NCBI GenBank assembly: GCA_005792205.1
Contig: SXSO01000138.1
Coordinates: 1 to 36,575 of the forward strand
Origin: Bacteroidota bacterium
Lineage (GTDB): Bacteria; Bacteroidota; Ignavibacteria; UBA10030; F1-140-MAGs086
Length of the DNA stretch: 36,575 nt
Reading direction: 5' to 3'
Made by a program: the position numbers and the translations under genes. Positions within the stretch are counted from its first letter, which is position 1; every line of letters starts with the position of its first letter. Below are positions 147 to 36,575 of the stretch, piece by piece. Below the pieces are notes generated by a model, which did no database searches, was not told where the DNA came from, and saw only the letters and a program-made list of their open reading frames with translations.

Positions 147-203
147 TTTTTGGGAAATTGGAAAATTGGTTTAATAATGACAAATTATTTCTCTAAAAAT
201 TGG

Positions 204-413
204 AGTGTTTTTTCACATAAGAAGAGAGTTTTTCCTCGTCGGAATGGTTTACTTTTGACCGAAACGGTGCTAATTTATTGAGTGAAATCGCCATATTACA
301 TAAACTCATTATATTACAATATCAATCGATTTGACAGGAAAAAATTTCCACTTTATTATAATAAATAGGAAAATTTTTCCGTTCCAAATTATTTCTCAAA
401 ATAACGATTTTGG
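204..413 (+). repeat. Intergenic 21-bp-phased repeat element, copy A (10 units)
   Basis: Reads in 21-mers: AGTGTTTTTTCACATAAGAAG / AGAGTTTTTCCTCGTCGGAAT / GGTTTACTTTTGACCGAAACG / GTGCTAATTTATTGAGTGAAA / TCGCCATATTACATAAACTCA / TTATATTACAATATCAATCGA and so on; aligns unit-for-unit with copy B. Confidence 0.8.
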
Positions 414-3500: not shown

Positions 3501-4555
3501 CGCTTGCGTTTCAAATGTTTCGCACATTCAAATCGGATACTTCGCTTTCAAAAAAAGCAAATAAAGTAAAAATAAAAAAGAATGTTATAACAGTTTTTCC
3601 AAACATCGCAACGGTTATTGAAAATATTTTCATAACAAATGGAAAAATATTTAGACTGAATTTGGGAATTCCTCAAACATCTACAAATACAAAGAAATAT
3701 GCGTGGTTACAATTTAAAAAGTCGTCAGAAATTGGAAACCTTTATACGTCATCTCACACGGATAATGGAATTGCGTATCCAATTGATTCACTTCGCAGTG
3801 GAACGAAAGCAAAAAAAATGTCAAAAGCAATTACACCAACAAGAAAAAATTTTGACAACATTGCGTTTGAGCAAGGAGTTGTTTTTAAAATGAACATTGT
3901 TGCAAGTGAAGACACAATTCTTCCGTATGGATTTGGAGATTTGATTTTGGACACTTCATTTGTGTTTATTGGCAAAAATTTAAATGGAATGGCATTAAAA
4001 AATATTGCAATTTATTTTGATTCCGTTATGACGTATTGGGAAATTTTTGGAATAAATAATCAAACTCAATATGAAAATTTGTATTCATTTTCAAAACATA
4101 TTTTGAAGCGAATTAACGATGGTTTTTTTGCTCTAATGGATACATCAAATTATGAAATTGACAAAAATGTAATTGTAAAAAAACCGTATTCTGTGAAATT
4201 GGATGGAGTAAAACTCGCTTCTGAAATTGGAATTATAAAACAATTTACCGAAAAAAATATTTCTAACTTTTCAGAGGAAAATAATTTTCTCGATAAATTT
4301 TCATTGAAACAAAATTATCCAAATCCATTTAATCCGAAAACAAAAATAAAATATGAAATTGCAAAAAGTGGATTTGTAAATTTAAAAGTGTTTGATGTTT
4401 TAGGTCGTGAAATAAAAACACTTGTAAATGAATCTCAAAATGTTGGAACTTACGAAATTGATTTTGATGCGAGTCATTTGAACAGTGGAATGTATTTTTA
4501 CAAACTCACGACAAATAATTTTTCTGAAATGAAGAAAATGATTTTAGTAAAATAA
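572..4555 (+). CDS. Secreted multidomain protein: GH8 glycoside hydrolase + right-handed beta-helix (DUF1565-like) + fibronectin-III-like + unassigned domain + T9SS C-terminal sorting domain
   Basis: ORF 563..4555; the ATG at 572 is preferred over the TTG at 563. GH8 motifs SEGHGYGMIITALFAG and DGDLDIAYALLLADKQWG; LYVSTNGNDNNPGTELLPLKTVQRALNIA beta-helix start; FSLKQNYPNPFNPKTKIKYEI...MKKMILVK sorting domain; N-terminal signal peptide. Confidence 0.9.
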   Translation: MQLRLIYYLLIISLVTLFTGEHFAYSQTVNFPFPQHFTYTEGTIFPSNYTQQQLDDSTSVFYTRWKERYLINGCEPNQYYVFWNYEGGGNPPNSISISEGHGYGMIITALFAGFDVNAKNYFDGLYRYFKTHPTESDSFLMAWNQITGCVNAANGGTSATDGDLDIAYALLLADKQWGSNGEIDYLAEAKNILLSLEQNCINPITSTVTLGNWVNSSNQNYYYGTRTSDFMFSHFQSFTLASKNPKWNQVKDKCYELISSIQNNYSASTGLLPDFIYQVNTQPKPAPANYLEGNNDGKYYYNACRVPWRVAMDYLHYGDIRAKNSLEKINTFIKSTTNSSPQNILPGYALNGTPIHTDYVDLPFIAPFAVSAMTDYSHQQWLNSMWNYLLTFSLNDASYYGNTLKLLSMIAVSGNWWNPQILTFGNSLYVSTNGNDNNPGTELLPLKTVQRALNIASAGTTIFVKEGIYNEKITFTHSGNVNDGFITLRNYGGDTAILDGTGKMGEQMILIENKSYLKIIGLEIQNNLNQSFGSGIWIKGNGTHIEIRNNRIHDMKATTNGDAMAISVYGTNATPFSNIIIDSNTIYNCQPGHSEALTLNGNVDTFQITHNIVHDVNNIGIDMIGGEGTCPDANQDAARNGICRNNIVYNAHSNYGGGYAAGIYSDGGINIIIENNLVFSSDAGFEIGCENQGRISSGIILRNNIAYNNDKRGIGIGGYNFPQTGKVINSYIVNNTLFNNDILNTTEGELVVEYTQNCWFENNIFYASSQNRLFVTTVGNNSGNIFNHNTWYSPGGNSSVTIDFNGTIYSSFTAYQNGTGQDGNSVFGNPLFIFPSSSFPDFHLLNNSPAINIGNNSLSTILGNFDYDGNERIQNGIVDCGAFEMNTNAPNPPQNLTVAGNDSLVILRWNKNSENNILRYRIYGSTTFHPISQIDSTTDTSITIVNLQRGVQYYFRITSVNTEILESGFSNEVNFTTLAFQMFRTFKSDTSLSKKANKVKIKKNVITVFPNIATVIENIFITNGKIFRLNLGIPQTSTNTKKYAWLQFKKSSEIGNLYTSSHTDNGIAYPIDSLRSGTKAKKMSKAITPTRKNFDNIAFEQGVVFKMNIVASEDTILPYGFGDLILDTSFVFIGKNLNGMALKNIAIYFDSVMTYWEIFGINNQTQYENLYSFSKHILKRINDGFFALMDTSNYEIDKNVIVKKPYSVKLDGVKLASEIGIIKQFTEKNISNFSEENNFLDKFSLKQNYPNPFNPKTKIKYEIAKSGFVNLKVFDVLGREIKTLVNESQNVGTYEIDFDASHLNSGMYFYKLTTNNFSEMKKMILVK

Positions 4556-4587
4556 GTTTTTAGTCGTTATCGTCGTTAAAAGAAAAT

Positions 4588-4618
4588 GGGATACAAAGTT
4601 TTTTGTGTCCCATTTTTG
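4588..4618 (+). terminator. Rho-independent terminator of the GH8 gene
   Basis: GGGATACAAAGTTTTTTGTGTCCCATTTTTG, identical to the hairpin at 116..146. Confidence 0.8.
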
Positions 4619-4675
4619 TTTTTGGGAAATTGGAAAATTAGTTTAATAATGACAAATTATTTCTCTAAAAATTGG

Positions 4676-4988
4676 AGTGTTTTTTCACACAAGAAGAGTA
4701 TTTTTCCTCGTCGAAATGCTTTACTTTTGACCGAAACGATAGTGTTTTCGTAAAAATACACTCTATTTTCGGGAAAGTGTAATCAAATCGGTCAAAAAAC
4801 GCTTCACCGAGACGAAAATGAAGTCATTTTTGACCGAAACGGGACGAAATTATTGACTAAAATCTCCATATTACAAAAAGCCATTTTATTACAATATCAA
4901 TCGATTTGATAGGAAAAGATTTCCTCTTTTAGACAACAAAACGATAAATTTTTCCGTTCCAAACTTGTTCTCCAAAACAACGAGTTTA
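4676..4988 (+). repeat. Intergenic 21-bp-phased repeat element, copy B (15 units, one 2-bp deletion)
   Basis: AGTGTTTTTTCACACAAGAAG / AGTATTTTTCCTCGTCGAAAT / GCTTTACTTTTGACCGAAACG / ATAGTGTTTTCGTAAAAATAC / ACTCTATTTTCGGGAAAGTGT / AATCAAATCGGTCAAAAAACG / CTTCACCGAGACGAAAATGAA and so on; length 313 = 15x21-2. Confidence 0.8.
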
Positions 4989-5224: not shown

Positions 5225-6523
5225 TTACACAAATAAATTTTTATTTCTCATATCTTTTTTATACTTTTCATATAACATTGTTTGATGACTTGTTAAATCA
5301 ATTTTTTTTCCGTCAATAAATTCCATTTCAACATTTGAACGAATATCAAAAATATCTCCATTCACAATAATTAAATTTGCGTCTTTTCCAATTTCTAACG
5401 ATCCAATTCTATTATCAACACCAAAAATTTGTGCGGGAAAAAGTGTAATGGATTTCAATGCAATATCTTTTGGAAGTCCATGAGCAATAGCAGTTCCAAC
5501 TTGATATGGAAGATTGCGATAATTTCCATCTCCACCTTCGTCTGCAGAAAAACAAAATTGGATTCCATTTTCATACAATTTTTTTGGAAGTAAAAATGGT
5601 TCGTTATACTGTTCCCAATTTCTATCGGGAAGTCGATGAGTCATATTTGCAACAACAGGAATTTGTTTTTCTTTCAAAAGATTTGCAATTCTCCAACTGT
5701 CATTTCCACCTGCAATTATTATGCGAACGTCATATTCTTCTGCAAACGCAACTGCAGATTGAATTTGTAAAATATCAAATGCCCAAACAAGAAGTGGAAC
5801 TTTTTTTTCAAAAACATTTATCATTGCGTCAAATTTTGCATCATATTTTTGTAGTGAATTATTTTTCTTTGCAACGAAATATGCTTTTGCATCTTTGAAA
5901 AATATTTGTAGTTCGTTTACAGATTTTTCATTTTCTTTTTTTTGGTCTTCTTCACTTCTTGTTTCCCACCACGCAGTATTTATTTTCATACTTGGGAAAT
6001 TCAAAACCATTGCTGACATTGATTTTACAAGCATATCTTCATAAGTCCATCCGTCAAGATTTACTGTTGCAATACTTCCAGAAATAATTCCACTTTGTGG
6101 TAAAACATTTACAGTTGTAATTCCATTGAAACGAGTTACAGGAATCAATTCGCTTTCAGTATAAACGGCAACTTCTGTTTTTAAATTCGGATTAAATTTT
6201 CCACCTTCAACATTATCGTGAGTTGCGCGAAGTGCTTGAACTTCATTTAATCCAAGAGTTGTGATTGAACTAAAAAGTCCGGGATAAATATGTTTTCCAC
6301 TTGCATCAATAATTTCATATTCAGAAGTTAAAGAAAAGTTTTTTCCAACAAATTCAATTTTTCCATTGCGAAAAGTTATTGTTCCTTTTTCAATTATTTC
6401 ATTTGCCGTGAAAACAGTTCCATTGATAATTGCAATTGGTTTGATTTGTTTTTTTGCAGGAATTTGATCGTTGCAAAAAATAATTTTGACAAAAAATAAA
6501 AAGAGAATAAAGTTTTTTTTCAT
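5225..6523 (-). CDS. Amidohydrolase-fold protein, apparently lacking the canonical HxH metal motif
   Basis: NGTVFTANEIIEKGTITFRNGKIEFVGKN...GKHIYPGLFSSITT and C-terminal FPAQIFGVDNRIGSLEIGKDANLIIVNGDIF are amidohydrolase signatures. Confidence 0.8.
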   Translation of the reverse strand: MKKNFILFLFFVKIIFCNDQIPAKKQIKPIAIINGTVFTANEIIEKGTITFRNGKIEFVGKNFSLTSEYEIIDASGKHIYPGLFSSITTLGLNEVQALRATHDNVEGGKFNPNLKTEVAVYTESELIPVTRFNGITTVNVLPQSGIISGSIATVNLDGWTYEDMLVKSMSAMVLNFPSMKINTAWWETRSEEDQKKENEKSVNELQIFFKDAKAYFVAKKNNSLQKYDAKFDAMINVFEKKVPLLVWAFDILQIQSAVAFAEEYDVRIIIAGGNDSWRIANLLKEKQIPVVANMTHRLPDRNWEQYNEPFLLPKKLYENGIQFCFSADEGGDGNYRNLPYQVGTAIAHGLPKDIALKSITLFPAQIFGVDNRIGSLEIGKDANLIIVNGDIFDIRSNVEMEFIDGKKIDLTSHQTMLYEKYKKDMRNKNLFV

Positions 6524-6528
6524 GGCGA

Positions 6529-9486
6529 TTATTTATTTTTTTCGTTTAAAATTTTTTGAATAAGAGTTGAACGAACTTCTTGAATTTTTTGATTTAATAT
6601 TTTATTTTCTTCAATATCAAAAAATTTTTTTCCATCAATCCAAGTTTGTTCGCAAATTGAATATGTGGAAAGTGGGTTTCCATTCCACACAACAAAATCA
6701 GCATCTTTCCCAATCTCTAATGAACCAACACGATTATCTATTTGAAGTTGTTTTGCGGGATTTATTGTTACAAAATTTAGTGCTTCTTCTTCTGAAAGAT
6801 TTCCATACTTCACTGCTTTTGCTGCTTCTGTATTTAATCTTCTCGCCATTTCATCACTATCAGAATTGAACGAAACCACAATTCCTTCATTATGCATCAT
6901 TGTTCCATTAAAAGGAATTGCATCAACAACTTCATATTTATATGCCCACCAATCAGAAAATGTAGACGCACCAACTTTATGATTTGCCATTTCTGTTGCA
7001 ACTTTATATCCTTCTAAAATATGTTGAAATGTTGCAATGCGAAAATTAAATTCTTCTGCAACTCTAATCATTGCTAAAATTTCATCTTGTCTATATGAAT
7101 GACAATGCACTAATCTTTTTCCATCTAAAATTTCTACAATTGCATCAAGTTCTAAATCACGACGAATTGGAAATTGTTTTTCACTACGATTTTGAAAAGA
7201 TAATTTGTAATCAATTGCTGCTTTAAACTCAGAACGAATCAATTCATTTACTCCCATTCTTGATTGCGGAAAATGATTTGAATTATTTTCTCCCCAATTG
7301 CTGTGTTTTGGATTTTCTCCGAGAGCAAATTTAATTCCCTCTTTTGCATTTTCAAATTTCATTTCATCAGGAAGAAAACCCCAACGAAGTTTTATCACTT
7401 GATTTTGTCCTCCAATTGAATTTGCAGAACCATGTAAAGCATTTATTGTTGTTACACCTCCTGCAAGTTCGCGATAAATTGAAATATCTTCTGAATCAAT
7501 TACATCTCCAATTCTAACTTCTGATGTTATGATTTGTCCCGTTTCATTCACGCTTCCACTTACAGCAGAATGCGAATGACAATCAATTAAACCACTTGTT
7601 ATGTGTTTTCCATTTGCTTCAATCACAAAAGAATTTTTTGGTTTGGAAAGATCTTTTCCAATTTCTTTTATTTTTCCTTTGTGAATTATTATGTCTCCAT
7701 TTTCAATTTTTCCAAGTAGAGATGAAGTCCAAATTGTCGCATCATTTATGAAAATGTATTCTACTTGTTCAGGAAATTTATCTTTTCCAAATGCTGTCAT
7801 TGGAAATGTGATTGGAAAAGACGTAAGCGAAATTTCAATTTCTTTTTTGGATGAGTCAAATTCTATTTTTGGTTCTGAAATTTTTTTTCCATTTAGAAAT
7901 AAAATTTTTCCATTTGGAAGTTGCAAAGTACCAAAGAAATTATTTTGAGAAAATGTTCCGTCAAGTAAAATTTTTCCTTTTACATCAATAGAATCACCAT
8001 CAAATGAAATTGATGAAAGCGTATTGTTTATTGATATTTTTGCTTTAATAGAATTTTGTATAGAATCGTTTTTTGAAATATTTGCAGAAAAATTTTCTTC
8101 TTTAAATTTTATTTCTATAAAAAAATTTTCCAACAACGTTTCATTTGAATTTAATTTCCAAATTCCACAAACAGATAAATTTTTTTCTTTTTCAATTTCA
8201 AATTCTTTTCCTTCAACCCAAACACTTAAAATTTTTCCATTTGAAAATATATTTCCATTTGATACAATTAGATTTGCAATTTTTCCTTTTTCAACCGTTC
8301 CCAAAATTTTTTCAACATTTAACATTTTTGCAGGAACTGTTGTAAGTGACGAGAGAGCAATATTTTCTGGAAGTCCTTTTTTAATTGCAAGTTTTAAATT
8401 TTTAAAAAAATCATTTTTTGAATTTTGTGATGTGAGAGAAAATTCAATTCCGTTTTGAAAAAATATTTTTGGATTTTCTGATGCATATTCCCAATGCAAA
8501 AGTTCAGAAACATCAATATCCAACGACTTTTCATAAGTATCAACATTTGGTGTTTTTGGAAAATTGAGTGGCAAAATAAATTGTGTTTTCAAATTTTTTA
8601 TTGCGTCAATTCTTTTATATTCATTTCCACTTCCCAATAAAATTAAATTCAAATTAAATTCATCAGCAATTTTTTTTGCACGAAAAACTTCTAAATGATT
8701 TGAAGTTTCAATCACAAACGGTTGTTTTTTTTGAATTACATTTTGAAGCGATTCTAAACTATTATTTATTTCAATTGGTTTTAGAGAATTTTTTTCAGAA
8801 AATAATTTTGCATCTTTATACCAAATTGCATCATAAAGTGTTTGTCGCAAAAGTGAGATTACTCCCATATTTGAATTTGGATAATTTTCTCCTTCAACAT
8901 TTTCAACTTTGAGTGTAGAGTGCATAAAAACATTTTCTCTAATCACTAAATTTGGAATTTCTGTTTCCTCATTTAAATTTAAAAGAGCACTTGTTCCTTT
9001 TATATTTCCTTTTTGCAAAATAAATAACGCAGAAGTAAATCCAAGTTTACGAAGTTCATTAAATTTATTTTCGTCTTTTGAAAATTCTTCCAAAACATTT
9101 TTGTGAGATAAAACTTTTTTGTTCCAATAAATCGCATTTGTAGAAGGTGATTGTTGTTGTTGCGGTGATTTATTTTTTTCTTTTTGCTCCACAATAGAAT
9201 ATGATTCAATAAATCCTGGATAAATTGTTTTGCCTTTTAAATCAATTACAAAAGCATCGTTTGGAATAGAAATATTTTCACCAACATTTTCAATTACGCC
9301 ATTGTGTATCAAAAGAATTCCATTTAAAATTGTTTTTGTTGGCGATTGCACAATAGTTGCATTTTTCAACGCAAATACAGTTGATTTATTTGTGCGAATT
9401 CCCTGTTGAGAATTTGTTTGAGAATTTATTTTATTTAGAAAAGTATTTCCAATTAAAAATAAAAAAAGAAAAAAAATTTTTTGCAT
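6529..9486 (-). CDS. Secreted tandem amidohydrolase (two amidohydrolase modules in one polypeptide)
   Basis: First module ...GKTIYPGFIESYSI...AKMLNVEKILGTVEKGKIANLIVSNGNIF; second module ...GKHITSGLIDCHSHSAVSG...PAKQLQIDNRVGSLEIGKDADFVVWNGNPL; signal peptide. Confidence 0.85.
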   Translation of the reverse strand: MQKIFFLFLFLIGNTFLNKINSQTNSQQGIRTNKSTVFALKNATIVQSPTKTILNGILLIHNGVIENVGENISIPNDAFVIDLKGKTIYPGFIESYSIVEQKEKNKSPQQQQSPSTNAIYWNKKVLSHKNVLEEFSKDENKFNELRKLGFTSALFILQKGNIKGTSALLNLNEETEIPNLVIRENVFMHSTLKVENVEGENYPNSNMGVISLLRQTLYDAIWYKDAKLFSEKNSLKPIEINNSLESLQNVIQKKQPFVIETSNHLEVFRAKKIADEFNLNLILLGSGNEYKRIDAIKNLKTQFILPLNFPKTPNVDTYEKSLDIDVSELLHWEYASENPKIFFQNGIEFSLTSQNSKNDFFKNLKLAIKKGLPENIALSSLTTVPAKMLNVEKILGTVEKGKIANLIVSNGNIFSNGKILSVWVEGKEFEIEKEKNLSVCGIWKLNSNETLLENFFIEIKFKEENFSANISKNDSIQNSIKAKISINNTLSSISFDGDSIDVKGKILLDGTFSQNNFFGTLQLPNGKILFLNGKKISEPKIEFDSSKKEIEISLTSFPITFPMTAFGKDKFPEQVEYIFINDATIWTSSLLGKIENGDIIIHKGKIKEIGKDLSKPKNSFVIEANGKHITSGLIDCHSHSAVSGSVNETGQIITSEVRIGDVIDSEDISIYRELAGGVTTINALHGSANSIGGQNQVIKLRWGFLPDEMKFENAKEGIKFALGENPKHSNWGENNSNHFPQSRMGVNELIRSEFKAAIDYKLSFQNRSEKQFPIRRDLELDAIVEILDGKRLVHCHSYRQDEILAMIRVAEEFNFRIATFQHILEGYKVATEMANHKVGASTFSDWWAYKYEVVDAIPFNGTMMHNEGIVVSFNSDSDEMARRLNTEAAKAVKYGNLSEEEALNFVTINPAKQLQIDNRVGSLEIGKDADFVVWNGNPLSTYSICEQTWIDGKKFFDIEENKILNQKIQEVRSTLIQKILNEKNK

Positions 9487-9996: not shown

Positions 9997-10060
9997 TTTA
10001 TAGAACACTCATTTTAGTGCCATATTTATTGACTGAAATTATGATTTGTATCATATGAAT

Positions 10061-10312
10061 GGAGTGGAAAGTTTTTCCGTTCTGATATGTTTTTTATAGA
10101 AATTTATTATATAATACAAAGAAATTTCACTCAATAGATTTGGTGTTTTTTCGAAACAAAATGACTTCATTTTCGTCTCGGTGAAGCGTTTTTTGACCGA
10201 TTTGATTACACTTTCCCGAAAATAGAGTGTATTTTTACGAAAACACTATCGTTTCGGTCAAAAGTAAACCATTCCGACGAGGAAAAACACTCTTCTTGTG
10301 TCACAAAACACT
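10061..10312 (-). repeat. Intergenic 21-bp-phased repeat element, copy C (12 units, inverted relative to A/B)
   Basis: Minus strand reads as 12x21 = 252 bp: AGTGTTTTGTGACACAAGAAG / AGTGTTTTTCCTCGTCGGAAT / GGTTTACTTTTGACCGAAACG / ATAGTGTTTTCGTAAAAATAC / ACTCTATTTTCGGGAAAGTGT and so on; 111 bp identical (inverted) to copy B. Confidence 0.8.
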
Positions 10313-10475
10313 CCGAAATTTTCAAAATAAACCCCAAAAAATCATCAATAATTACAGTGCTTTACGAGACAACGTCAACTCAATCAATTTTACAAAATAA
10401 AATTTAATTTCATAAAAAATATTTTGCAAACAAATTTTATCTCTTCGTATATTTTAGAAAAAAAATTATAAATTT

Positions 10476-18252: not shown

Positions 18253-18370
18253 AAAAAAATTGAGTATAAAAATAAGAAAGTTTTATTGAAAGAATTTGTT
18301 TTAACACATTTAAACTCGTAAAAATAAATAATTATTTTTCTTTTATTGAATTTATTTTGAAAAATTTTGG

Positions 18371-18538
18371 TGTGTTTTTTCCCAAAAGAAGAGTGTTTTT
18401 CTTCGTCAAAATGGTTTACTTTTGACCGAAATGATGATATTTTTGCAAAAATACATTCTATTTTTGGAAAAATATCATCATTTCGGTCACAAACATAGTA
18501 TTCCGAATCAATAGATTAAACAGGAAAAAATTTCCTCT
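18371..18538 (+). repeat. Intergenic 21-bp-phased repeat element, copy D (8 units)
   Basis: TGTGTTTTTTCCCAAAAGAAG / AGTGTTTTTCTTCGTCAAAAT / GGTTTACTTTTGACCGAAATG / ATGATATTTTTGCAAAAATAC / ATTCTATTTTTGGAAAAATAT / CATCATTTCGGTCACAAACAT / AGTATTCCGAATCAATAGATT / AAACAGGAAAAAATTTCCTCT. Confidence 0.75.
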
Positions 18539-24773: not shown

Positions 24774-26552
24774 ATGAATTTACAAATTAGAAATAGAGAA
24801 AACATAATTGCAATTTCAATTTCAGTTTTTGCATTTGTGATTTATTTTTTTACAGCATCAAGAACGGTTTCATTTATTGATGCAGGAGAACTTGCAACGG
24901 TTTCTCTCACTCTTGGAATTGCTCATCCAACAGGTTATCCACTATTTACAATTTTAGGAAATTTGTGGAGCAAACTTCCATTAGGAATTTCAAAAATTTT
25001 TCAACTCAATTTATTATCGTCTTTGTTATGTTCATTGAGTTTATTTTTCTTTTTCAAATTTTTGATTTTTATTTTCAAAAACAATTTTAAAGTTAAAAAT
25101 GAAACCATCCTAATTTTTTCGGCAACAATTTCAACGTTGCTTCTTGCGTTTTCAGAAACGTTTTGGCAACAATCTATTATTATTGAAGTTTATTCACTTC
25201 ATATTTTATTTATTTCCATTTTGCTTTTTCAATTTGTAAAATTTATTTCTACGAAAAAATTGCATGATGGAATTTTATTTGCATTTTTTTTGGGACTTAG
25301 TTTTGCAAATCATTTGACGACAATTTTATTTGCTCCTGCATTTTTATTTTTATTTTTTAAAACATTTGGATTTAATAAAAATTCATTTCAAAAAATTTTG
25401 TGGTTTATAATTCCATTTGTAATTGGACTTTCTGTTTATGTTTATCTTCCACTACAAGCAAAAAATTCTCCAACGTATAATTGGGGAAATCCAATTGATT
25501 GGGAAAAATTTTTACGACATACAAGTGGAAAACAATATCGCGGTTGGTTTTTTTCTTCAATTGAGACAATGAAAATTCAACTTAAATATTTTTTCTCTGA
25601 TTTGCTAAAAGAATTTTCTTACGTGTCAATTCCTATTGTATTTATTGGTGTTTTTCAGTTATTAAAAAAATCAAAGTCAATTTTTATTTTTGTTTTACTC
25701 TTATTTTTATTTTGTATTTTTTACTCTTCAAATTACGATATTCATGATATTGATTCATATTTTTTGTTTGCATATTTTTCAATTGCAATTTTATTTTTTT
25801 TCGGAACGCAATTTCTTTTGGAAAAAAATTATTCCAATTTAAAAATTGCAATTTTTTCTGTAATTGGAATCGTTCCACTTTTTGCGAATTATCTAAATGT
25901 GGATGAAAGTAAAAATTTTGCTGCGGAAGATTATACAAAAAATATTTTTTCTTCAGTTGAAAAAAATGCAATTATTATTTCGTATCAATGGGATTTTTTT
26001 GTTTCACCATCTTATTATTTTCAAGAGATTGAAAATTTGCGAAAAGATGTTATTGTCATTGATAAAGAACTACTTCGTCGTTCATGGTATTTTAATTATC
26101 TCAAAAAAAAATATCCAGAAGTTGTAAAAAAATCTCAAAAAGAAATTGACGATTTTTTAGAATCTCTAAAACCATTTGAAAATGATTTACCTTTTGATGG
26201 AAATTATATTGAACAATTTTATCAGAAACTTATCACAAGTTTTATTGAAAAAAATATTGACGAAAAACCAATTTATATTTCTCCGGAAATTGAAAAAGAA
26301 TATGTAAAAAACTATATTTTAATCCCATCGGGATTGGTGTTTAGAGTGTTTAAATCTCCGAATGAAATTACTTTTACTCCGAAATTTTTTGAGTTTCGTC
26401 CAATAGAAAATAAAGGACGTTTGACAAATTCAATTTTACAGTTTTATTCAAAGAGTTATAAAAATCAAGCAAAATTTTCTTCACAAATTGGAGACACAAT
26501 AAATACAAAAAAGTTTTTAGAAAAATTAAATGAAATAGAAACGATTGAATAA
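24774..26552 (+). CDS. DUF2723 multi-pass membrane protein (putative protein O-glycosyltransferase)
   Basis: SFIDAGELATVSLTLGIAHPTGYPLFTILGNLWSKLP; many TM segments. ORF starts 24747 (GTG); the ATG at 24774 is preferred. Confidence 0.88.
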   Translation: MNLQIRNRENIIAISISVFAFVIYFFTASRTVSFIDAGELATVSLTLGIAHPTGYPLFTILGNLWSKLPLGISKIFQLNLLSSLLCSLSLFFFFKFLIFIFKNNFKVKNETILIFSATISTLLLAFSETFWQQSIIIEVYSLHILFISILLFQFVKFISTKKLHDGILFAFFLGLSFANHLTTILFAPAFLFLFFKTFGFNKNSFQKILWFIIPFVIGLSVYVYLPLQAKNSPTYNWGNPIDWEKFLRHTSGKQYRGWFFSSIETMKIQLKYFFSDLLKEFSYVSIPIVFIGVFQLLKKSKSIFIFVLLLFLFCIFYSSNYDIHDIDSYFLFAYFSIAILFFFGTQFLLEKNYSNLKIAIFSVIGIVPLFANYLNVDESKNFAAEDYTKNIFSSVEKNAIIISYQWDFFVSPSYYFQEIENLRKDVIVIDKELLRRSWYFNYLKKKYPEVVKKSQKEIDDFLESLKPFENDLPFDGNYIEQFYQKLITSFIEKNIDEKPIYISPEIEKEYVKNYILIPSGLVFRVFKSPNEITFTPKFFEFRPIENKGRLTNSILQFYSKSYKNQAKFSSQIGDTINTKKFLEKLNEIETIE

Positions 26553-26597
26553 TAATAAAAACTTTTTCCAATTTACCTTGTAAATATTGTGTGAAAA

Positions 26598-26807
26598 CGA
26601 CTTTACATGATGTAAAAACCACTTTACCTATTAGGTAAATGACTTTTTATGACATGTAAACTACTTTACATGTCAAGTAAACGACTTTTTATATCATAAA
26701 CGGTGTATTTTATGCCATGTAAACCACTTTTTATGTCAAGTACATCACTTTTTGTGTCATAAAATTGACTTTTTGTATAGTAAAAAGTGGTTTTTTGAAC
26801 CGAAACG
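26598..26807 (+). repeat. Intergenic 21-bp-phased repeat element, copy E: ten contiguous, gap-free 21-mers
   Basis: CGACTTTACATGATGTAAAAA / CCACTTTACCTATTAGGTAAA / TGACTTTTTATGACATGTAAA / CTACTTTACATGTCAAGTAAA / CGACTTTTTATATCATAAACG / GTGTATTTTATGCCATGTAAA / CCACTTTTTATGTCAAGTACA / TCACTTTTTGTGTCATAAAAT / TGACTTTTTGTATAGTAAAAA / GTGGTTTTTTGAACCGAAACG. Confidence 0.92.
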
Positions 26808-26866
26808 GGATTTTTTTATATTAAATAAATGATATTTTTTCTCATCTTTAAAAAATTTTTTTTGAG

Positions 26867-27763
26867 TTGATTTACATTTTTTTGTCAATTTTTTTATTTC
26901 TAATTTTATTTTCAATCATTGCCTATTTGATTGGAAAGAAAAAACTTATTTATCCACATCGCACAACTTTCACATATTACAAAAAAAATAATAAACCATA
27001 TCATCCGTCTCATTTAAATCTTCCATATGAAGAAATTGATTTTGAGTTGGAAAAAAATCTCAACACCAAAATTTGGTTGATAAAAAATCCCAATTCAAAA
27101 AAAATTGTGATTTATCTTCACGGAGTTGAAGAGAGTAAATTATTTGGTTTGCCGTATGCAAAATTTTTATATGAAAATAATTTCAATGTTGTGTTATTTG
27201 ATTTTAGAAGACACGGAAATAGCAACGGAAAATTTTGCACATATGGGTTTTATGAAAAATATGATGTGAAAAAAATTATTGATTTTATTTTGCAAAGAAA
27301 TGATTTTCAAAATAAAAAAATTGCGTTGATGGGAATTTCAATGGGAGCAGCAATTGCAATTCAAACTGCTGTAATTGATGATAGAATTAGTTGTATGATT
27401 GCAGAAAATTCTTTTACAACTTTAAGAAAAATTTTTGATGATTATCAAAGAAGAATTATCAAACTTCCATTTCATTATTTGAGAAATTTAGTTTTTTCTC
27501 GTTGTGAAAAAATAGCAAACTTTAACTCAAAACAAATTTCTCCAATTGAGGATATTACAAATCTCAAAATTCCAATTTTATTTATCGCAAGTCAAAGTGA
27601 TGATAGAATTGCACCAAAATATTCTGAAGAGTTGTATGAAAAAGCAACTTGTGAAAAAGAAATTTTACGAATTGAAAATGCAAATCACATAAATGCAATT
27701 GATGTTGAAAAAGAAAAATATATTTCAACTGTCATTTCTTTTTTAGATAAAAACTTAAAATAA
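26867..27763 (+). CDS. Alpha/beta hydrolase (membrane-anchored)
   Basis: IVIYLHGVEESKLFGLPYAKFL...DFRRHGNSNGKFCTYGFYEKYDV...ALMGISMGAAIAIQTA (GxSxG); apparent TTG start. Confidence 0.88.
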   Translation: MIYIFLSIFLFLILFSIIAYLIGKKKLIYPHRTTFTYYKKNNKPYHPSHLNLPYEEIDFELEKNLNTKIWLIKNPNSKKIVIYLHGVEESKLFGLPYAKFLYENNFNVVLFDFRRHGNSNGKFCTYGFYEKYDVKKIIDFILQRNDFQNKKIALMGISMGAAIAIQTAVIDDRISCMIAENSFTTLRKIFDDYQRRIIKLPFHYLRNLVFSRCEKIANFNSKQISPIEDITNLKIPILFIASQSDDRIAPKYSEELYEKATCEKEILRIENANHINAIDVEKEKYISTVISFLDKNLK

Positions 27764-36371: not shown

Positions 36372-36442
36372 AAAATAAAATCGTTATTTGGAAAGAACCA
36401 GTTGACGGGAAAAGTTTTGGTTTGTTTATTTTACCAAAAAAT

Positions 36443-36575
36443 CCCGTTTCGGTTAAAAAGTGTTCACGTGACATGTAAAGTGGTTTACGGATAGTGTAAA
36501 GTCATTTATAGAAATTGTAAGAAAATGAACTTCTATAATATGGCAATTTCACTCAATAATTTCGTCCCGTTTCGG
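36443..36575 (-). repeat. Intergenic 21-bp-phased repeat element, copy F (truncated by the window edge)
   Basis: Minus strand ...CCGAAACG / GGACGAAATTATTGAGTGAAA / TTGCCATATTATAGAAGTTCA / TTTTCTTACAATTTCTATAAA / TGACTTTACACTATCCGTAAA / CCACTTTACATGTCACGTGAA / CACTTTTTAACCGAAACGGG (one 1-bp deletion); joins A/B-type units to E-type units. Confidence 0.8.

Follow-up and report, generated by a model that had tools for sequence, protein, structure and literature searches.

An array of palindromic 21-bp units as the probable core of a dispersed, BOX-like composite repeat in an Ignavibacteria genome

The window analysed here, a stretch of 36,575 nucleotides of DNA, carries an intergenic array of palindromic 21-bp units (array E, positions 26598-26807) which probably forms the tandem core of a composite element that is non-coding, dispersed, specific to its lineage and BOX-like in architecture, and that would spread non-autonomously and grow by whole units. 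Pattern, end-string and covariance-model searches of one genome (an Ignavibacteria-class MAG of 1.24 Mb, 62% complete, in 155 contigs) placed the array family at about 18 unrelated, mostly intergenic sites on 16 contigs, and the further genomic matches that the original prediction had expected from such a scan were thus obtained. The class assignment of the genome is based on its E1 dehydrogenase, which shares 81% identity with the enzyme of Ignavibacteriales MAG CROMO_A_84. The element appears to be a repeat family new to the literature; no described repeat of such kind was found in the Ignavibacteria literature.

The interval 26598-26807 consists of ten contiguous 21-bp units without indels, with unit starts from 26600 to 26789. 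Cut every 21 bp from 26600 on the plus strand, units 1-5 read ACTTTACATGATGTAAAAACC, ACTTTACCTATTAGGTAAATG, ACTTTTTATGACATGTAAACT, ACTTTACATGTCAAGTAAACG and ACTTTTTATATCATAAACGGT, and units 6-10 read GTATTTTATGCCATGTAAACC, ACTTTTTATGTCAAGTACATC, ACTTTTTGTGTCATAAAATTG, ACTTTTTGTATAGTAAAAAGT and GGTTTTTTGAACCGAAACGGG; the unit at 26705 is degenerate. The first nine (26600-26788, plus strand) keep exact register and follow the consensus ACTTTACATGnCATGTAAACn, each with a TTTAC...GTAAA dyad. The tenth had also been taken for a degenerate unit, at 26789, and is instead the conserved terminal unit of the element: the right end of E (26789-26816, plus strand) is formed by the 21-bp unit GGTTTTTTGAACCGAAACGGG followed by ATTTTTT, the T-run stopping at about 26816. 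On the left, comparison of sequence and register with other copies delimits a degenerate edge at 26571-26598 (plus strand), made up of the degenerate dyad TTTACCTTGTAAA (at about 26573-26585) and the unit-like TGTAAATATTGTGTGAAAACG. The self-identity of 26598-26807 was 0.60 at lag 21, 0.61 at lag 42 and 0.61 at lag 63, with 0.15-0.41 at the other tested lags, and the best lag-21 stretch (68/105) exceeded the maximum of 54 seen in 20 Markov-resampled copies of the whole window. The coordinates and the register predicted for ten gap-free units were therefore right. Tandem Repeats Finder reported a period of 21 (score 108) together with a 63-bp higher-order repeat (score 175), and E holds a 63-bp (three-unit) internal duplication.

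E is flanked by two plus-strand genes: one, TMEM260-like (DUF2723), ends at 26552, and the other, encoding an alpha/beta hydrolase, starts at 26867. No tRNA was found at the array interval. As predicted, there are neither spacers nor an open frame, the units being contiguous and stops occurring in all six frames; a CRISPR array was rejected, as unique spacers are absent. The stops also bear on the reading that E is a decayed coding repeat of heptapeptides, 21 bp corresponding to seven codons. That 21 is divisible by three and that two frames of the consensus unit are without stops would fit such an origin, but it conflicts with the stops in every frame of E and leaves both the palindromic covariation (see below) and the shared non-coding end unexplained, and we find it scarcely credible.

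The copies have a common anatomy: a left hairpin module (which E is without) comes first, palindromic units of 21 bp follow, 1-10 in number, and the right end is fixed, ...CCGAAACGGG/ATTTTTT. Read from the left, full copies comprise a left module GTATTTATTGaCTAAAA...GGAACGGAAAAATTTTCCTATTTATTGTCTAAAAGAGGAAATTTTTTCCTGTTTACT, a transition AAGTTTTACTATCCGTAAAtg, n units ACTTTACATGnCATGTAAACn, often ACTTTTTGTATAGTAAAAAGT, and then GGTTTTTTGtcCCGAAACGGG plus ATTTTTT, so that, as in a composite repeat, different left and right modules surround a tandem core of variable unit number. Candidate end strings of the element are CCGAAACGGGATTTTTT and GTATTTATTGACTAAAA; the former, the right-edge string of E, has five exact occurrences in the genome and several others that differ by few changes, these being located beside 21-bp arrays. 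The five copies with both ends measure 166, 186, 186, 270 and 314 bp and thus differ by about whole units. Within any one array all units have the same orientation, and in the copies compared the 21-bp register is kept to the end, except for a 1-bp deletion in the second copy of this window (36436-36516, minus strand), which is short, with one 20-bp unit and the right end CCGAAACGGGATTTTTT. The copies lie on contigs C28, C35, C53, C63, C77, C88, C106, C110 (two), C112, C114, C126 (two, both in this window), C129, C138, C139, C142 and C147. Those on C88 and C138 are degenerate, the end motif of C138 being oppositely oriented, and the C114 copy and the start of contig C129 have an almost identical left module. 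Judged by eye, two MITE-like segments of the window (10000-10140 and 280-430) appear to end in inverted repeats ATTTATTGAnTGAAAT..., an end that the left module of the array element seems to share.

Given this anatomy, the single-locus platform (iteron or segregation site) that was first envisaged gives way to a composite repeat dispersed over many sites, its right end fixed and its left module optional. E shares with the iteron arrays of plasmid origins a tandem arrangement and a pitch of roughly two helical turns. However, its units are palindromic and about 18 copies are dispersed among ordinary genes; no replication or partition gene was seen in the readable flanks of the arrays, which are housekeeping, transport or type IX-secretion genes, and blastn against plasmids and phages returned short or weak matches, none of them convincing or spanning most of the array. 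That E is an iteron or partition site, belonging to a plasmid or to an integrated replicon, is accordingly very unlikely.

The dyad within the units, likewise predicted, is real and covaries. Columns 3-9 pair with columns 13-19 in 84.0% of cells compared to 79.9% in shuffles, and double changes number 25 compared to 10 in shuffles, none of which reaches 25; when the partner is slid by 1-3 columns, pairing falls to 24-51%. It should be underlined that the units are related, so that this covariation is supportive rather than a strict probability. For the dyad that spans the 4-base linker, pairing did not exceed that of shuffles when wobble pairs were counted, whereas strict Watson-Crick pairs alone did. 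T-G and A-C departures are about equally common in the dyads, adding plus-strand or minus-strand wobbles gave similar excesses, and no strand-specific wobble was seen in the array units as a sign of RNA. Since the in-unit dyad covaries without strand preference, we place the constraint at the DNA level. Moreover, E folds about equally on its two strands (z of -3.9 and -3.6), which makes the dyad look like a DNA feature; in several other copies the minus strand folds better.

The same data weigh on the proposal that the array acts as a structured RNA or a 3' UTR/terminator, in which run-off transcripts would be stabilised or terminated by folding into a series of hairpins. Copies do sit behind genes, the folds of most arrays are better than those of shuffles whichever strand is taken, and folding of the ancestral end TCCCGAAACGGGATTTTTT gives a terminator-like hairpin. 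Palindromic DNA yields the same folding scores, however, the array has no Rfam match at the gathering threshold, and no terminator-like site was called in E, the right-end hairpin of which is too weak. As both strands beat shuffles and the pairing changes, wobbles included, are strand-neutral, this part of the original prediction is not favoured and we judge it quite improbable.

Next to the dyad, the spacing of the units was considered. With strict gap costs the arrays have 0.003-0.010 indels per substitution compared to 0.033-0.034 for the family-2 repeat of the same genome, and with a lax gap cost the rates are 0.060 and 0.074, respectively; taken together, these rates indicate that the spacing of the array units is probably, not certainly, constrained. 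The selection on spacing put forward earlier is in this respect suggested by the strict-gap rate alone, which is 3-10 times lower than that of family-2. In the array at C63:2000-2240 (minus strand) half of the units now differ widely from the consensus (e.g. CGTTGTAATGGCATGTAAACC), yet all are exactly 21 bp, a strong hint of a constraint on spacing. The family-2 repeat itself is a hairpin element containing GACCGAAAyGAT, present at about 23 places in the genome (6 behind type IX-secretion genes) and in this window at 4660-4850 (+), 10158-10322 (-), 18360-18493 (+) and 188-266 (+); TTTTG motifs recur every 21 bp in some of its copies.

An exact pitch across diverged units, the low strict-gap indel rate (compared to 0.033 in family-2), the in-unit covariation and the persistence of register in the drifted C63 copy are all consistent with a binding platform of the host, where a dimeric DNA-binding protein would sit on each 17-bp dyad and the 21-bp pitch would present the same face every two turns, possibly for cooperative assembly in chromosome organisation, silencing or the expression of neighbouring genes. 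On the other hand, the lax-gap rates are similar, unit number varies from 1 to 10, the repeat is absent from relatives, and no convincing solitary 21-bp-dyad sites were found elsewhere in the genome. We therefore regard such a platform as rather unlikely. Protein binding as such is possible, in which case the array would most plausibly be the site of a mobilising or host protein.

The composite element that we prefer has a traceable copy history. Compared unit by unit, E and the copy at C110:5630-5865 are 77% identical at corresponding units and 61-65% at other offsets, and E, this copy and that on C106 have an equal distance of 179 bp between a TTAGG/ATAGG-type unit and the CCGAAACGG end, though they have diverged. 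The C147 copy consists of successive 42-bp dimers, and those at C110:10984 and on C142 have unit types of their own. The correspondence between E, C110 and C106 together with the internal duplications indicates that arrays are copied whole and also amplify locally by whole units; they would lengthen by duplicating, and shorten by losing, two or three whole units at once.

Outside this genome the family was not encountered. Among 393 other genomes of the class there was no match at E<=0.001 under strict filters, which can lose weak matches, and when 39 relatives, two of them from the same family, were searched more laxly, three lone matches (E 0.009-0.036) emerged, which are probably due to chance. 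The exact patterns were not found in species-genome and viral collections, from which records of the own genome may be absent. At the hydrolase locus of two same-family genomes, the DUF2723 gene does not adjoin in the stretches compared. Terminal inverted repeats were at shuffled level in four of five full copies and at the 95% level in one, none being convincing; in the test for target duplications, the words shared near the ends were 4-6 bases long in AT-rich DNA, and there was no empty site. A Y1/RAYT transposase (PF01797) had no match in the own genome, the assembly of which is 62% complete. As the searches yielded neither an empty site nor target duplications, and neither convincing terminal inverted repeats nor an enzyme for mobilisation, we infer mobility from the dispersal of the copies and their shared ends. 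Spread would be non-autonomous: either a putative transposase would act in trans on hairpins and ends, or the repeated 3' cassettes of type IX-secretion genes would recombine with one another. Constraint at the DNA level would maintain both the palindromes and the two-turn pitch of 21 bp, probably because equivalent dyads on one helix face are required for cruciform extrusion or by a protein that mobilises or binds the element, and copies may persist mainly because gaps behind genes tolerate them.

With regard to genomic setting, nine of the 18 arrays have a match to the type IX secretion sorting domain (PF18962) whose 3' end is 85-197 bp away, and none of the 18 lies on the 5' side of such a match. 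By our estimate about 0.3 arrays would be expected behind PF18962 by chance (45 windows of 450 bp, one for each match passing the cut-off in the assembly, 1.24 Mb, 18 arrays); an expectation for intergenic DNA only is above 0.3, though short of nine. The right neighbour gene runs toward the array in 10 of the 12 copies where it is readable. E is an exception, in that it occupies a co-directional gap between ordinary genes and does not adjoin a type IX-secretion gene. The 3' ends of the sorting-domain genes are repeated sequences in their own right, with the protein end TTNNFSEMKKMI followed by a GGGACACAAA...TTTGTGTCCC hairpin, and owing to this shared descent of 3' cassettes the copies behind type IX genes are not all independent. 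In the window, the 3' ends of two type IX-secretion genes (1-270 and 4480-4740) are near-identical over about 200 bp, a duplicated 3' cassette spanning the downstream hairpin and a family-2 element. Elsewhere in the window two adjoining amidohydrolase-family genes (5225-6523 and 6529-9486, minus strand) are probably a tandem pair.

One could go further and regard the arrays as a DNA scaffold, two-turn-locked palindromic operators behind type IX genes that a putative lineage-specific protein binds cooperatively; if so, this protein would organise type IX loci or promote the exchange of C-terminal sorting-domain cassettes. We consider this an unlikely, speculative extension. Repeats behind type IX genes with near-identical 3' cassettes do suggest a route by which sorting domains could spread between secreted proteins. 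Moreover, 10 of the 26 type IX-secretion genes examined end within 280 bp of a contig edge, which means that assembly breaks cluster behind these genes and that such repeats matter for assembling these genomes.

Among known systems, REP/BIME repeats with RAYT transposases (PMC2817692) resemble the array element as short extragenic palindromes in mosaic, species-specific clusters; they differ in that the array units are uninterrupted and of single orientation, and that no Y1/RAYT was found in the 62%-complete genome. A BIME was rejected because its units alternate in orientation (PMC2817692), all units of an array pointing one way. MITEs (Correia elements, RUP, Nezha) are similarly AT-rich, non-coding, dispersed and strongly base-paired (PMC2229807, PMC3049150), whereas the array element has a tandem core and no detected terminal inverted repeats or target duplications; the failure of full copies to show terminal inverted repeats, by which MITEs are defined (PMC3049150), led us to reject this class. 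The closest architecture is that of the pneumococcal BOX element of Streptococcus pneumoniae, boxA-boxBn-boxC (PMC3049150). Both are composite, dispersed and non-coding, with tandem core units that vary in number and are enclosed by two different end modules, predicted folding, enrichment between convergent genes and lineage restriction. The array element differs from BOX by its strictly phased 21-bp palindromic core, its optional left module, the lack of detected terminal inverted repeats and the location of half of its copies behind one gene class. The two come from different phyla and seem to be unrelated in sequence, and we claim likeness for architecture only: an apparently undescribed repeat family from a poorly studied class, combining a BOX-like architecture with a strict two-turn palindromic core.
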